Part shown: piece by piece, positions 21,309 to 58,883 of the stretch | Numbering within the stretch: position 1 is the stretch's first letter | Layout: each line of letters begins with the position of its first letter | Assembly (NCBI RefSeq): GCF_002803515.1 | Contig: NZ_PHQX01000003.1 | Coordinates: 124,001 to 188,000, forward strand | Source of the DNA: Stenotrophomonas lactitubi | GTDB taxonomy: Bacteria > Pseudomonadota > Gammaproteobacteria > Xanthomonadales > Xanthomonadaceae | Reading direction: 5' to 3' | DNA length: 64,000 nucleotides | Notes under the pieces: model-generated | Database searches by the model: none | The model's input: only the letters and a program-made list of their open reading frames with translations | Told to the model about the DNA's origin: nothing | Made by a program: the position numbers and the translations under genes

Positions 21309-21388
21309 GCCGCGCTGCGCGCTCGCCGGGCATGGCCCGGCGCTACCTTTGGGCGTTGGGATCCGGTAGCGCCGGGCCATGCCCGGCA
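21309..21388. repeat. Inverted pair of SMAG/GTAG repeats
   Basis: CGCCGGGCATGGCCCGGCG then CTACC at about 21325 faces GGTAGCGCCGGGCCATGCCC near 21365. It forms one long hairpin between two minus-strand genes. Confidence 0.8.
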
Positions 21389-37365: not shown

Positions 37366-37467
37366 GGCGGGGTGGGTCCGGTTGCGGGGGCGTGAGCCGC
37401 ATGGATGCGGCGACCGAGCTTACATGGACGTACTTGCAGCGTCCCCCGCAACCGGACCCACCCCGCC
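37366..37467 (+). repeat. Long structured element, family 1, copy B
   Basis: Arms 37366-37390 and 37443-37467 are perfect 25-bp complements. The enclosed core is 53 bases, the same length as in copy A at 24414, with about 36 identical positions. It contains hairpins GCCGCA-TGGA-TGCGGC (37396-37411) and GGACG-N9-CGTCC (37426-37444). In the first hairpin one G-C pair of copy A is a C-G pair here, a compensatory change. The arm sequences of A and B are unrelated. It lies between convergent genes, and the rest of the 286-base gap holds a SMAG hairpin and nothing else I can identify. Confidence 0.75.
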
Positions 37468-43787: not shown

Positions 43788-43911
43788 CGGGGGGACTCCA
43801 GGTGCCGCGCACGCCCGCGCAGCGAAGGGGAGGAGTCACAACAGGCAGGCACGCGCCGATGCCGCGGCCATCGCCACAGACATCCAGCGCCATGCCCACC
43901 GCATCGCGACC

Positions 43912-44110
43912 TGAGGCTTCCGGGCCGGTCTCCGGGCTCGCCGCCGGGTGGCCCGAGGCCACCGTCCAGGCGCCTTCCCATGCCTGCGGCACAGTGGCGG
44001 GTTGCCTGGAACTGACGTGCTTACCGTTGCGGGGGCAGCGCCGGCATGGCGTGTTGTCACGCGTCACCGGCTTCCCGTTTCAACCTGCCGGCAGGGCCGC
44101 AGGTCACCTG
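43912..44110 (-). ncRNA. Cobalamin riboswitch upstream of btuB
   Basis: On the minus strand the conserved cobalamin-aptamer blocks occur in order: GGCAGGTTGAAACGGGAAGC, then CCGGTG, GCCCCCGCAACGGTAAG, CCGCCACTGTGCC, GGCATGGGAAGG, and the B12 box AGCCCGGAGACCGGCC. It lies 125 bases upstream of btuB, so it should reduce BtuB synthesis when adenosylcobalamin is plentiful. The 515-base gap 43788-44302 otherwise holds the btuB leader and the shared promoter zone. Confidence 0.93.
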
Positions 44111-44302
44111 GAAGTGCGCGCAGTCTACGGCATCGCGACCGGCCGGTAGCGTCGAACCTGCTCGGCTGATCAGGTGCGGATGTGCCTGCACGGTGCAGCA
44201 GACCTGCGCCAGCGCCTAGAATGCAGCTCGAATTATCGTGGTGCCGTTGCCGATGTCCGTCTGTTTTCCGCTGTTCCCGCGCCGCCCTGACTGGGCACGC
44301 GC

Positions 44303-46510: not shown

Positions 46511-46590
46511 GGGTAGCGCCGGGCCATGCCCGGCGAGCGCTCAGCGCGGCAGGCAGAGAAGCCGCCGGGCATGGCCCGGCGCTACCGATC
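46511..46590. repeat. SMAG/GTAG repeats
   Basis: GGTAGCGCCGGGCCATGCCC at 46512 faces CCGGGCATGGCCCGGCG then CTACC near 46565, an inverted pair between convergent genes. Confidence 0.8.
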
Positions 46591-48170: not shown

Positions 48171-48237
48171 TGTAGAGCCGAGCCCATGCTCGGCTGCTGT
48201 TGGCGGAAGAGCAGCCGAGCATGGGCTCGGCTCTACA
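48171..48237. repeat. Perfect 28-bp inverted SMAG pair
   Basis: Bases 48171-48198 and 48210-48237 are exact complements with an 11-base spacer. Each arm is a GTAGAGCCGAGCCCATGCTC unit, so the pair can form one 28-bp hairpin or two small ones. Confidence 0.9.
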
Positions 48238-56049: not shown

Positions 56050-57951
56050 ATGAGCGGCGTGGTCGGGGCCTGGCTGCCGCCTGCCGACGACGAGCAGCTG
56101 CTGCAGCAGCTGGCGCCGATGCTGCGGGCGCTGCAGCAGCGCGGCCGCGGTCGCATCGGTTACTGGACCGATGCCGACGCAGGACTGGCCCTTGGTCATT
56201 GCCGCGCGCCGACCGACATGCCGTTGCAGCCGCTCAGTTCCAGCTGTGGGCGTTACGTGCTGTGCCTGGATGGCCGCATCTACAACAGGGCGGCGCTGCA
56301 GTCGCAGCTGCGCGATCTGCCGCGCAGCTGCACCGATGCACGCCTGCTGCTGCAGGCCATCGTCGAGTGGGGCGTGCAGCGTGCGCTGTCGCGCATCGAA
56401 GGGGCGTTTGCGTTCAGCGTCTGGGACCGCCATGCGCATGAACTCTGGCTGGCGCGCGACCCGGTCGGCGAACGGCCGTTGTATTACGGGTGGTACCAGG
56501 GCCAGTTCCTGTTCGCTTCGGAGTTGAAAGCGCTGCAGGCCTTCGCCGGGTTCGCTCCCAGCATCGACCAGGATGCATTGAGCCTGCTGCTGCGCCATGA
56601 CTATGTGCCTGCGCCGCATACCATCTATCGCGGCATCCACAAGCTGGTGGCCGGGGCGATGCTGCGCGTGGACCTCAACGACCATGCCGCCGGCGGATCA
56701 ACGCAGGCGACGCAGGGAGGCCATCGCTACTGGTGCGCGCGCGATGCGATGCAATCAGCGCTGCAGGAGCCGTTGCAGCCGGCGCCCAGCCTGGAGCAGG
56801 CCACCGACCAGTTGGAGGTGGTGCTGCAGCAGGCGATCGCCGCGCGCATGCATTCACCCGTGGCCTGCGGTGCGTTCCTGTCCGGCGGTACCGATTCGTC
56901 GCTGGTGGTGGCGATGATGCAGGCGCAATCGGCGTTGCCGGTCGAAGCATGGACGGTGGGTTTCGATGACCCCGGTCACGACGAGAGCGACTGGGCCTCG
57001 CAGGTCGCCCGCCATCTGGGCGTGCATCACCACCTGCACAGGATGGACAGCCGGCAGGGTCTGGATCTGCTGCAGCGCTTGCCGCAGGTCTGGTGCGAAC
57101 CGTTCGCCGATGCCTCGCAGCTGCCCACCTTGCTGGCCAGCGAGCTGCTCGGCGCGCGCAAGCCGGTGGCGTTGACCGGCGACGGCGGCGATGAACTGTT
57201 CTTCGGCCACCCAAGCTACGGCCGCGCGTTGCGCAATGCGCGCCTGTGCGGTGGCCTGCCGGACTGGGTGCGTGATCTCGCGCGGCGTGGCAGCAGCCGC
57301 TTGAACGTGGAGCGGGGGCGGCTTGGCGGTTGGCGGGCACTGGTGGCCGAAGTGGCGGCCAACGATGTGGAGGGGCATTACCTGCAGCGCGTCACCCGCT
57401 GGCGGCAGCCGACCCAGGTGGTGTTGGGCGCACGCGAGCCGGCGACGATCTTCCAGCAGCAGGACACCGCACTGCCGGCAGAAGCACGCATCCAGCTGCT
57501 GGATTTCCGCATGGATCTGGCCGAAGGCATCCTTGCCAAGGTCGACCGTGCAGGCATGGCGGCCGGCGTGGAAACGCGCTCGCCGCTGCTGGACATGGAG
57601 GTGGTGCGCCTGGCCTGGCGCCTGCCGCAGCACCTGAAATACCACGACGGTGAGCACAAGCGGATCCTCAAGCATCTGCTGTCGCGCTATCTGCCCGCAC
57701 CGCTGGTCTATCGTCCCAAGCGCGGTTTCGGCCCGCCGATGGCGCGCTGGCTGGCCGGCCCACTGCGCGACTGGGCGGAAGCACTGCTCGATCCGCAACT
57801 GCTGCGCAACCAGGGCTGCTTCGATGCGGTGCGCGTGCGCGCGATCTGGGAGGCGTTCCTGCGCGGCGAGCGCAAATGGCATACGCACCTGTGGAACGTG
57901 TTGATGTTCCAAGCGTGGTACCAGCACTGGCACGGCAACCGCGGGCGCTGA
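56050..57951 (+). CDS. Asparagine synthetase homologue without nucleophile Cys
   Basis: 633 residues. The N-terminal glutaminase-like domain begins MSGVVGAW where active AsnB enzymes have MCGI: the catalytic Cys is replaced by Ser, RGRGRIG replaces HRGPD, and DGRIYN replaces NGEIYN. The C-terminal synthetase is intact, with the PP-loop FLSGGTDSS, WCEPFADASQLPT, LTGDGGDELFFGH and RSPLLDMEVV. GGAGG before the ATG at 56050 fixes the start, so the missing Cys is not an annotation artefact. Glutamine use is unlikely; ammonia-dependent or amide/lactam-type chemistry is possible. No obvious biosynthetic neighbours. Confidence 0.9.
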   Translation: MSGVVGAWLPPADDEQLLQQLAPMLRALQQRGRGRIGYWTDADAGLALGHCRAPTDMPLQPLSSSCGRYVLCLDGRIYNRAALQSQLRDLPRSCTDARLLLQAIVEWGVQRALSRIEGAFAFSVWDRHAHELWLARDPVGERPLYYGWYQGQFLFASELKALQAFAGFAPSIDQDALSLLLRHDYVPAPHTIYRGIHKLVAGAMLRVDLNDHAAGGSTQATQGGHRYWCARDAMQSALQEPLQPAPSLEQATDQLEVVLQQAIAARMHSPVACGAFLSGGTDSSLVVAMMQAQSALPVEAWTVGFDDPGHDESDWASQVARHLGVHHHLHRMDSRQGLDLLQRLPQVWCEPFADASQLPTLLASELLGARKPVALTGDGGDELFFGHPSYGRALRNARLCGGLPDWVRDLARRGSSRLNVERGRLGGWRALVAEVAANDVEGHYLQRVTRWRQPTQVVLGAREPATIFQQQDTALPAEARIQLLDFRMDLAEGILAKVDRAGMAAGVETRSPLLDMEVVRLAWRLPQHLKYHDGEHKRILKHLLSRYLPAPLVYRPKRGFGPPMARWLAGPLRDWAEALLDPQLLRNQGCFDAVRVRAIWEAFLRGERKWHTHLWNVLMFQAWYQHWHGNRGR

Positions 57952-57985
57952 GTATTCCTTGCGCGACGAACTCATTCTGCGCGGC

Positions 57986-58079
57986 GCAGGGCGGAGGCCC
58001 TTGCGTGCGAATGTCCTCCGGCGCCGGCCGGTGGCCGTCACCTCCCCCTTTACTTCGCACGCAAGGGCCTCCGCCCTGC
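57986..58079. repeat. Long hairpin element, family 2, copy C
   Basis: Arms 57986-58011 and 58054-58079 are perfect 26-bp complements enclosing a 42-base core (58012-58053) that starts TGTCCTCCGGCGCCGG and ends CCCCCTTTAC. The same 42-base core, with 36 matches, recurs inverted at 58176-58217 within quite different arms. No coding potential. Confidence 0.8.
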
Positions 58080-58155
58080 ATGGGGAGATCTTCGGTGGCC
58101 TCGGGAAAAGCAGCGATCTGCGCGCCTGGGCCCCGCAAGCCGAGCGTCGTCGTGG

Positions 58156-58237
58156 CCGGTAAGGGTTTGGACAAAGTAAAGGAGGAGGGGGCGGCCGCAG
58201 GCCGGCGCCGGGGGACATTTGTCCAAACCCTTACCGG
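58156..58237. repeat. Long hairpin element, family 2, copy D (inverted)
   Basis: Arms 58156-58175 and 58218-58237 are perfect 20-bp complements enclosing a 42-base core (58176-58217), GTAAAGGAGGAGGGGG to CGCCGGGGGACA, the reverse complement of the copy C core with six changes. Arm sequences share nothing with copy C. Confidence 0.8.
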
Positions 58238-58298
58238 ACACGGCGAGGCCCATCCGGTCGCGGCTGATCCAGGCGAAGAAGCCTGCCTGGCGGAGGCG

Positions 58299-58428
58299 AA
58301 AAAAAAGACCCGGCAGAGGGAGGGATCTGCCGGGTCCGGATTGCATGGGGGGAGGGACCCATGCAATGAGCGTGGGCGTCGCGCCAGTGGCTGTTGCCAG
58401 TCGCATCCGCCGTGCATTTGTATTGATG
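58299..58428 (-). ncRNA. Candidate small RNA with two C-rich hairpin loops
   Basis: Minus-strand RNA of about 130 bases, between queD and the hairpin elements. Its 3' half has two hairpins with unrelated stems but the same eight-base loop, TCCCTCCC: ATTGCATGGG/CCCATGCAAT (58367-58340) and GACCCGGCAGA/TCTGCCGGGTC (58336-58307). The second is followed by eight T (58306-58299) and is a textbook terminator. A promoter lies just upstream. Repeated C-rich loops are the hallmark of sX13-type RNAs of Xanthomonas, which bind G-rich ribosome sites; homology to sX13 itself cannot be tested here. Confidence 0.75.
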
Positions 58429-58434
58429 CAATGC

Positions 58435-58462
58435 AGCATACGCCGATCATGCGGCATTGCAA
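58435..58462 (-). promoter_or_regulatory. Promoter of the C-rich small RNA
   Basis: On the minus strand TTGCAA (58462-58457), a 16-base spacer, then TATGCT (58440-58435). Both fit sigma-70 hexamers, and a start near 58428 precedes the RNA hairpins. Confidence 0.55.
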
Positions 58463-58463
58463 C

Positions 58464-58494
58464 AAAAAATATGAAGGCGCCGTTTCCGGCGCCT
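58464..58494 (-). terminator. Terminator of queD
   Basis: A perfect 8-bp stem, AGGCGCCG / CGGCGCCT, with a four-base loop lies 27 bases past the queD stop. On the minus strand it is followed by TCATA and six T. Confidence 0.6.
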
Positions 58495-58520
58495 GGATTC
58501 CTTTCAGATCAGTGGGTTGA

Positions 58521-58883
58521 TCAGGCGGCAGGGCCGCGGTAGCGGCAGCCCGAGGTGCAGGTTTCGTGCACCGTGATCTCGCTCAATGCCGGCAGGACGG
58601 GCTTGAGCTCGTTCCATATCCACACTGCCAGATTCTCGCTGGTCGGGTTCTCCAGGCCGGGGATGTCATTGAGATAGTGGTGGTCCAGGCGGTCGTAGAT
58701 CGGCTGGAAAGCCGCCTTCACATCGCCGAAATCCATGATCCAGCCGGTCTGCGCACCCGGCTCGCCCTCCACCTTCAGTTCCACCCGGAAGGAGTGGCCG
58801 TGCAGGCGCGCGCATTTGTGCCCCGGCGGCACGTTGGGGAGGCGGTGCGCCGCCTCGAGCATGAAGACTTTGAAGATTTCCAT
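58521..58883 (-). CDS. queD: 6-carboxytetrahydropterin synthase QueD
   Basis: 120 residues, the normal length. Zinc His residues lie in FMLEAAHRL and RLHGHSF, the catalytic Cys in [10 protein letters not shown], and the pair His in LDHHYLND with the Glu in VHETCTSG. Second step of queuosine (7-deazaguanine) synthesis from GTP. ATG at 58883. Other que genes are not in the window. The same frame stays open upstream for nearly 3 kb, but that is the shadow of the receptor gene. Confidence 0.95.

Follow-up and report, generated by a model that had tools for sequence, protein, structure and literature searches.

A dispersed family of twin hairpins with a conserved purine-rich internal loop in two bacterial families

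Twin hairpins in the window

The 64,000-nucleotide stretch of the Stenotrophomonas lactitubi genome that was analyzed here (G000:C3:124001-188000, referred to below as the window) contains two adjacent hairpins, alpha and beta, with closely similar loops in opposite orientation and dissimilar arms. How can hairpins share a loop and not the arms that enclose it, and would such a structure act as RNA or as DNA? The element is located between a plus-strand gene that ends at 57951 and a minus-strand reading frame that ends at 58521. Judging by their protein sequences, we take the former to be asparagine synthase-like and the latter to be 6-pyruvoyl-tetrahydropterin synthase-like. The parts of the element and its surroundings are as follows.

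57986..58079, minus strand: alpha hairpin, with a 26-bp perfect outer stem and the core on the minus strand; covariance model match G000:C3:181996-182069:-
58012..58053, minus strand: alpha core, 42 nt, consisting of the GTAAAGGGGGA loop strand, the inner hairpin, and the GGAGGACA loop strand
58043..58053, minus strand: 5' strand of the alpha internal loop, R = G form, from position conservation and joint R counts
58012..58019, minus strand: 3' strand of the alpha internal loop, GGAGGACA, R = A form
58080..58143, no strand: spacer between the hairpins, without a sigma70-like promoter
58133..58144, plus strand: CCGCAAGCCGAG; by eye, further copies in the genus have it or a near variant on the 5' side of their beta-type arms
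58144..58249, plus strand: beta hairpin, with a 20-bp perfect stem and an imperfect extension; covariance model match G000:C3:182160-182233:+
58176..58217, plus strand: beta core, 42 nt, consisting of the GTAAAGGAGGA loop strand, the inner hairpin, and the GGGGGACA loop strand
58176..58186, plus strand: 5' strand of the beta internal loop, R = A form
58210..58217, plus strand: 3' strand of the beta internal loop, GGGGGACA, R = G form
58306..58337, minus strand: terminator-like site between beta and the right-hand gene

The hairpins have the geometry that had been ascribed to them in a sequence-only reading of the window. The arms of alpha (57986-58011 and 58054-58079) form 26 bp and those of beta (58156-58175 and 58218-58237) form 20 bp, 100% paired in both cases around a loop of 42 nt. 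The two loops are identical in 36 of 42 positions in inverse orientation, or in 40 of 46 with the flanking AA/TT included. The beta helix extends imperfectly to 58144-58249, with 29 of 32 positions paired. The arms had been said to have no common sequence, which holds for the window pair, where the best local match between the 5' arms is just 4 nt, but not among orthologous copies, which resemble each other in arms of a given type. Elsewhere in the window, the arms recur only as words of at most 9 to 10 nt.

Folded as RNA, the strand that carries the AAAGGRGGA motif (the core-plus strand) reaches -75.4 kcal/mol (z -10.3) in alpha and -70.9 kcal/mol (z -8.9) in beta. The respective values for the complement are -73.0 kcal/mol (z -10.6) and -57.3 kcal/mol (z -7.4), so that the core-plus strand has the lower folding energy in both window hairpins. 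Within 57850-58550, neither alpha nor beta forms a terminator-like site, i.e., a stem-loop followed by a U-tract. At the position of 58338-58520, between the terminator-like site and the next gene, several relatives have an extra stretch, presumably a phasin-like gene, that is missing from the window.

Conserved internal loop and variable helices

In an alignment of 55 representatives (A3, made up of 53 of the 64 picked copies and the two from the window), each unit consists of a variable outer helix, a 5-bp helix that is mostly GCGAA/TTCGC, an internal loop with RTMAAGGRGGA opposite GGRGGACA, and a variable inner stem-loop. Each G of the internal loop is kept in at least 53 of the 55 arm clusters. 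The 42-nt core, previously described as fixed, proved to be a lineage-specific form: elsewhere, the inner hairpin varies in sequence and length, and the purine internal loop is the conserved part. The purine run GTAAAGGAGGAGG, to which the sequence-only reading had drawn attention, corresponds to one conserved strand of this loop plus the beginning of the inner stem. The palindrome CCGGCGCCGG, also pointed out there, is located mostly within the variable inner hairpin and is not kept as such.

The two variable purines of the loop are linked. Among 276 copies, 229 have the A/G combination, 39 have G/A, 6 have A/A, 2 contain a C, and none has G/G, so that exactly one R is an A in 268 of them; the G/G state is found in at least two copies outside this set. 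Since GGRGGA is present on both strands of the loop, the A/G and G/A states are mirror images of a single loop. Many Comamonadaceae-type copies and the alpha copies of part of the genus contain, as judged by eye, a 3x3 internal loop (GNA/GGA) 5 to 6 bp further out. The purine loop invites comparison with CsrA sites, with Shine-Dalgarno pairing, and with G-quadruplexes, and might form a (GGA)4-like G-quadruplex. Four loci (L344, L354, L366, and L377) have CATGAGC in place of CATTCGC after the loop, a recurrent break of the 5-bp helix.

Distribution of the family

The proposal of a dispersed family with a common core is borne out by searches beyond the window. With up to 3 mismatches allowed, the 42-nt core pattern has 5 matches in the same genome (none for the reversed pattern) and is found in 52 of 91 genomes of the genus, with no match of the reversed control in any of them. 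A shorter exact pattern is present in 43 of 395 genomes of the family, covering 7 of 54 genera, again with no matches of the reversed control, and has no matches in a collection of viral contigs. Genera among the matches listed in a scan of named genomes include Stenotrophomonas, Lysobacter, Luteimonas, Variovorax, Hydrogenophaga, Rhodoferax, Ramlibacter, and others; contig matches without arms (L325, L342, and L358) were dropped. Seven records titled Bacillus subtilis SK7B5 (L322, L327, L333, L346, L353, L373, and L389) contain Stenotrophomonas-type copies and are probably contaminated or mislabeled.

A covariance model was built on the 55 representatives and used with strict search filters and with at most 12 (phylum sample) or 19 (family f6) scored candidates per genome, so that the resulting genome and copy counts are lower bounds. 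It identifies at least 6 copies in the S. lactitubi genome, arranged as three divergent pairs. In a sample of the phylum, it has matches in at least 11 of 398 genomes, which belong only to families f1 and f6 among the matches listed. In family f6, which the named matches suggest to be Burkholderiaceae/Comamonadaceae-like, at least 112 of 250 sampled genomes and at least 74 of 141 genera are represented. Copy numbers can be high, with 89 pattern matches in one genome and at least 19 covariance model matches in several f6 genomes.

Arrangement and gene context

Neighboring cores less than 330 nt apart show a strongly preferred arrangement: of 134 such cases, 116 are divergent (-+), 8 are +-, 6 are --, and 4 are ++. 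The median gaps in three lineages are 118, 122, and 124 nt, and the spacers, compared by eye, are unalike between lineages. In a second pass, 26 neighbors with arrangements other than -+ comprised 18 in arrays and 8 isolated ones; L079 and L081 are isolated same-orientation cases. By pattern, 34 of 85 clusters are single, some of them with a diverged partner.

None of the 85 clusters is found inside a called gene. Their neighbors are convergent in 34 cases, tandem in 42, divergent in 4, and missing or unknown on one side in 5, counts that include 51 of the 80 listed loci of the named-genome scan and depend on a home-made, crude gene caller, which missed both inter-hairpin frames of L462 and placed some named neighbors kilobases away. 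The inverted doublets, fixed spacing, and extragenic position that characterize REP/REPIN sequences are thus all found here. At a site common to many species (site 1), the same upstream gene was recognized in 18 of the 20 relatives examined; G086 has this gene without the core.

An autonomous version of the element, with a gene between the hairpins, was considered. Among the loci examined, a single case was seen (L462:860-3728), in which hairpins 2.9 kb apart enclose a frame for an ORC/AAA-type ATPase and a 290-amino-acid frame without an assigned family; it includes no transposase domain and no PADLOC match. The ATPase frame as listed overlaps the beta hairpin, making its start uncertain, and the enclosed genes are possibly cargo inserted into the spacer. 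Another candidate, L463, turned out to be two pairs flanking transporter and flavin genes.

Selection on base pairing

The idea that the arms evolve fast under a pairing constraint is supported by paired substitutions between orthologous copies, whose arms are related. Neither of the outcomes that the sequence-only reading had named as refuting it was obtained, since the core is present elsewhere and the arms at orthologous sites are similar without being identical. Dispersed alpha copies (n = 25) have double changes at 15 base pairs, compared to 5.3 in shuffles; their alignment (A1) includes 25 of 31 copies, leaving out L077, L080, L081, L089, L090, and L092 as recombinant, base shifted, or much diverged. 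L092 is a hybrid in which the 5' arm is of the alpha type and the 3' arm of the beta type, a product that recombination via the common core would yield. In the site-1 beta copies (n = 20; alignment A2, 20 of 22 copies), double changes are found at 9 base pairs, compared to 1.8 in shuffles. The 55 representatives contain 265 double-changed cells versus 77.8 in shuffles, with a score of 0.668 versus 0.174, and are 93.8% paired versus 33 to 40% in slid controls, although their selection for at least 11 of 16 paired arm positions inflates the percentage paired and, to a lesser extent, the double changes. The element thus shows covariation beyond controls, as structured RNAs do, which by itself does not distinguish RNA from single-stranded DNA.

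As far as the alignments indicate, what is conserved is base pairing together with a small purine-rich loop, and the sequence of the stems is free to change. A structure can apparently be inherited and spread while nearly all of its stem sequence turns over.

The folded strand

Pure palindromy predicts equal numbers of G.T and A.C mismatches in the arms. Counted on the core-plus strand, the arms of 214 of 215 distinct copies contain 348 G.T and 122 A.C mismatches. The excess is seen in the genus for both alpha (107:24) and beta (211:79), in genus g4 (67:18), and in g51 (19:6), with the same lean in g3, g11, g20, and g29, where the counts are too small to judge. At the level of 55 clusters, G.T is in excess in 39, A.C in 4, and 12 are ties. 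In 77 copies from Comamonadaceae-type loci, the ratio is 190:31. The G.T excess on the core-plus strand of both hairpins, whatever the direction of the genes, indicates that what has been under selection in each hairpin is one folded strand, with a polarity particular to that hairpin: the selected fold is that of the strand carrying AAAGGRGGA, in both units. Because the active strands of alpha and beta are on opposite DNA strands, an asymmetry of replication or transcription at the locus is an unlikely cause.

The same counts bear on neutral palindrome correction, in which template switching between the arms would keep them paired without selection. It could explain why the arms are long and nearly perfect and yet unlike from copy to copy; however, it predicts equality of G.T and A.C, not the 348:122 and 190:31 that were found, and we regard it as very improbable. 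Among the comparison hairpins, the set with the GATG tag is balanced (15:17), although the set with the tag CTAC, likewise intended as a control, leans (14:4), which means that small sets can lean for other reasons; these sets, including GTAG (12:4) and terminators (22:13), are too weak to separate RNA from DNA.

At tandem-gene sites, hairpins that are antisense to both neighbors show a ratio of 72:8 (38 copies) and sense hairpins one of 59:7 (32 copies; Fisher p = 1). This equality speaks against the hairpins simply serving the upstream gene's mRNA. The intergenic location, with just 4 of 85 clusters between divergent genes, would suit ordinary 3' untranslated region hairpins that stabilize or terminate that mRNA, as in the role of BIMEs, but at tandem genes the antisense hairpin is constrained as strongly as the sense one and the window hairpins have no terminator-like site, so that this option appears unlikely. 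If the spacer contained a promoter from which two small RNAs were transcribed outward, this would explain why both core-plus strands face outward and why the fold of each is under strand-specific selection. However, a sigma70-like scan of all pairs found no excess of outward promoters in the spacers (score 6.26 versus 6.49 in shuffles; spacer GC, 0.67), and no such site is present in the window region of the element, which leaves little room for this possibility.

Mobility and ISL3-type ends

Several genomes of the genus carry the pair within elements of approximately 385 to 480 bp that end in GGTTCTTC(G/T)CCC and are located beside terminator T-tracts. An ISL3-like end with at most 2 mismatches is found within 260 nt of the core at 14 of 18 loci in G030 and 15 of 20 in G056, compared with a chance expectation of about 0.14 per locus. 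A run of at least 5 T/A just outside the end accompanies 32 of 43 distinct end matches near cores versus none of 6 far from cores. Among 13 two-ended candidates, one (L156) has an exact 8-bp target duplication, TTTTTTCA, and another has one of 7/8, with T-runs blurring the rest. Sites without the core, which the sequence-only reading had suggested comparing with filled ones, are present in G008 and G058, where the match continues across the joined flanks with the terminator kept and the sequence right of the junction diverged, as well as in G086. These comparisons of sequences indicate that the pair is mobile in relatives.

The ends resemble those of intact insertion sequences of the genus. 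Of 14 ISL3-family loci, 8 (in G007, G008, and G023, encoding proteins of 418 to 427 amino acids in approximately 1.3 kb) have GGTTCTTCTCCCATCTGAGGGGAG at one end and target bases that match in 7 to 8 of 8 positions and are mostly T-rich; the remaining six have different ends or no clean ends. Of the 91 genomes of the genus, 9 have an above-cut-off match to the ISL3 transposase domain (Pfam ID PF01610), among them the carriers G007, G008, and G023. No PF01610 transposase was found in the carriers G030, G028, G056, G072, G074, and G026, several of which have high copy numbers, and ISL3 enzymes, if they are the movers, would therefore now be gone from these six carriers or reside in other strains. 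In G008, two intact ISL3 copies are located within about 100 nt of twin-hairpin cores (L226 and L245).

Such ends are not found everywhere. There is an end match at 1 of 20 loci of site 2 and at 1 of 18 loci in g4, and 12 of 20 loci of site 1 have only GCGTCTTCGTCC-like strings with 2 mismatches that do not abut a T-tract. The window copy has no clean ISL3 ends and contains a comparable GCTTCTTCGCCT string; the strings at site 1 and in the window could be either decayed ends or chance matches. When nine loci were aligned, the Variovorax copies proved to have different ends, TTCAGGGCGCG.

The sequence-only reading had also considered that the arms are gained from the target. Copying of the arms from the insertion site would explain why the two window hairpins differ in theirs, but the dispersed copies have a common 36-bp arm consensus, orthologous copies have related arms, and the flanks of insertions are mostly T/A runs, leaving this explanation with a negligible likelihood.

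Relation to known systems

The element resembles REPINs and BIMEs, which sections of two papers (PMC3116915 and PMC3686654) describe as extragenic hairpins in many copies; the former reports inverted doublets with a fixed spacer length and compensatory changes for REPINs. It differs from them in the stems, which in the window are perfect over 20 to 26 bp as opposed to the 8 to 9 bp given for stenotrophomonads in parts of PMC3686654, and in that its conserved part is an internal loop. The GTAG/GTGG tetranucleotide, described there as the REP tag, is absent from the base of the hairpin among the conserved columns of the element. Genes for the Y1 transposase (RAYT; Pfam ID PF01797) were detected in 11 of 15 carrier genomes and not in the other 4, and none of 27 Y1 loci has the motif within approximately 1.5 kb. 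Mobilization by RAYTs is thus unsupported in the carriers tested. The twin-hairpin element is REPIN-like in its logic and, by its tag, stem size, and Y1 association, is not a REPIN.

With ISL3-derived miniature elements (MITEs), the family shares, in part of the genus, ends similar to those of the intact ISL3 copies and T-rich targets; it differs from them in the ends of the Variovorax copies and the lack of clean ends in g4. The 14 ISL3 loci that were examined contain no core, suggesting, from a comparison of cores only, that the twin hairpins are not a simple ISL3 deletion derivative. The SMAG/GTAG palindromes are likewise intergenic hairpins of Stenotrophomonas but have another architecture as well as a different sequence, length, and tag; neither GGGGGACA nor "internal loop" is found in the main text of the GTAG/CGTC paper.

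Structured RNA motifs of the Rfam class also have conserved internal loops between covarying helices and differ from the element by its paired outward arrangement. At the gathering score, Rfam 15 has no match at the window element or at 18 Comamonadaceae-type loci, and a permissive search yields only subthreshold matches. A title and abstract search of the literature, which mostly did not extend to subscription papers and also took in parts of PMC9208149, PMC3733652, and PMC12306157, found no description of the element. It is a family of dispersed hairpin doublets without a match in the RNA library or the literature searched. Although it is abundant and strongly structured and extends over two bacterial families, it matches no Rfam 15 family.

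Possible functions

The reading that we tentatively favor is that of a mobile, dyad-symmetric twin-hairpin element whose folded strand is RNA, which acts at the ends of transcripts and is moved by transposases of insertion sequences. The observations themselves comprise selection for the fold of one strand in each hairpin, an outward-facing dyad that is mostly fixed, a location between genes that avoids divergent promoters, and mobility in relatives; action as RNA at transcript ends goes beyond them and is a tentative inference. In the proposed mechanism, the dyad symmetry of the pair would cause a transcript from either direction to exit via a correctly oriented hairpin, and the purine loop might bind a host factor. 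The element would serve behind genes as a direction-independent end, processing point, or insulation point for transcripts and would be carried along by the transposases. A more specific formulation is possible, if with considerable doubt: the units might represent a class of twin RNA motifs, in which a pseudo-two-fold-symmetric purine loop, with GGRGGA on both strands, faces outward on both DNA strands independently of orientation and which, having been spread by unrelated IS transposases, is retained behind genes in two families as a transcript insulator or protein landing site.

Some observations sit uneasily with the favored reading. They include the six carriers without a PF01610 transposase, the loci that lack clean ISL3 ends, the single exact target duplication, the single clusters, the neighbors arranged other than -+, and the lean of the CTAC set. 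The wobble bias of antisense hairpins is not predicted by a plain mRNA role, although it is compatible with RNA, as mobile copies may still reflect the sites that they occupied before and antisense read-through does occur. In the window, the terminator-like site lies between the element and the right-hand gene, which, together with the lack of promoter excess in the spacers, suggests that the element may be little transcribed.

The main rival is a REPIN-like role at the DNA level, in which each folded DNA strand would be the substrate of a transposase or nuclease acting in trans, the unit acted upon being the inverted pair with its fixed spacing. A fixed spacing of units with opposite functional strands fits such a DNA-level unit at least as well. 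This alternative stands because spacing and the divergent orientation are mostly fixed and the wobble bias ignores gene direction; it would also accommodate the up to 89 copies in some genomes and the features noted above for REPINs from PMC3116915. Few of the genes next to the copies were identified, so that another cognate gene may exist. Against it are the missing link to PF01797 genes and the pairing kept at site 1, which is common to many species and lacks clean mobile ends. On balance, the DNA-level role appears somewhat doubtful, and RNA action at transcript ends is preferred. Since the active strand can be read from the wobble asymmetry, and since both strands are displayed at once by the pair, the element offers a clean system for the question of RNA versus DNA.

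Other structured features of the window

The window contains further hairpins. One of them, at 37366-37467, has 25-bp perfect arms and a 52-nt loop, is presumably a member of the family listed first in the sequence-only reading, and has no Rfam match at the gathering score. Perfect inverted repeats at 1584-1658, 21325-21387, 46512-46586, and 48171-48237 resemble paired GTAG-type palindromes, which we assume to be of the SMAG/REP type. A cobalamin riboswitch is found on the minus strand at 43906-44126, with a score of 91.3 bits.
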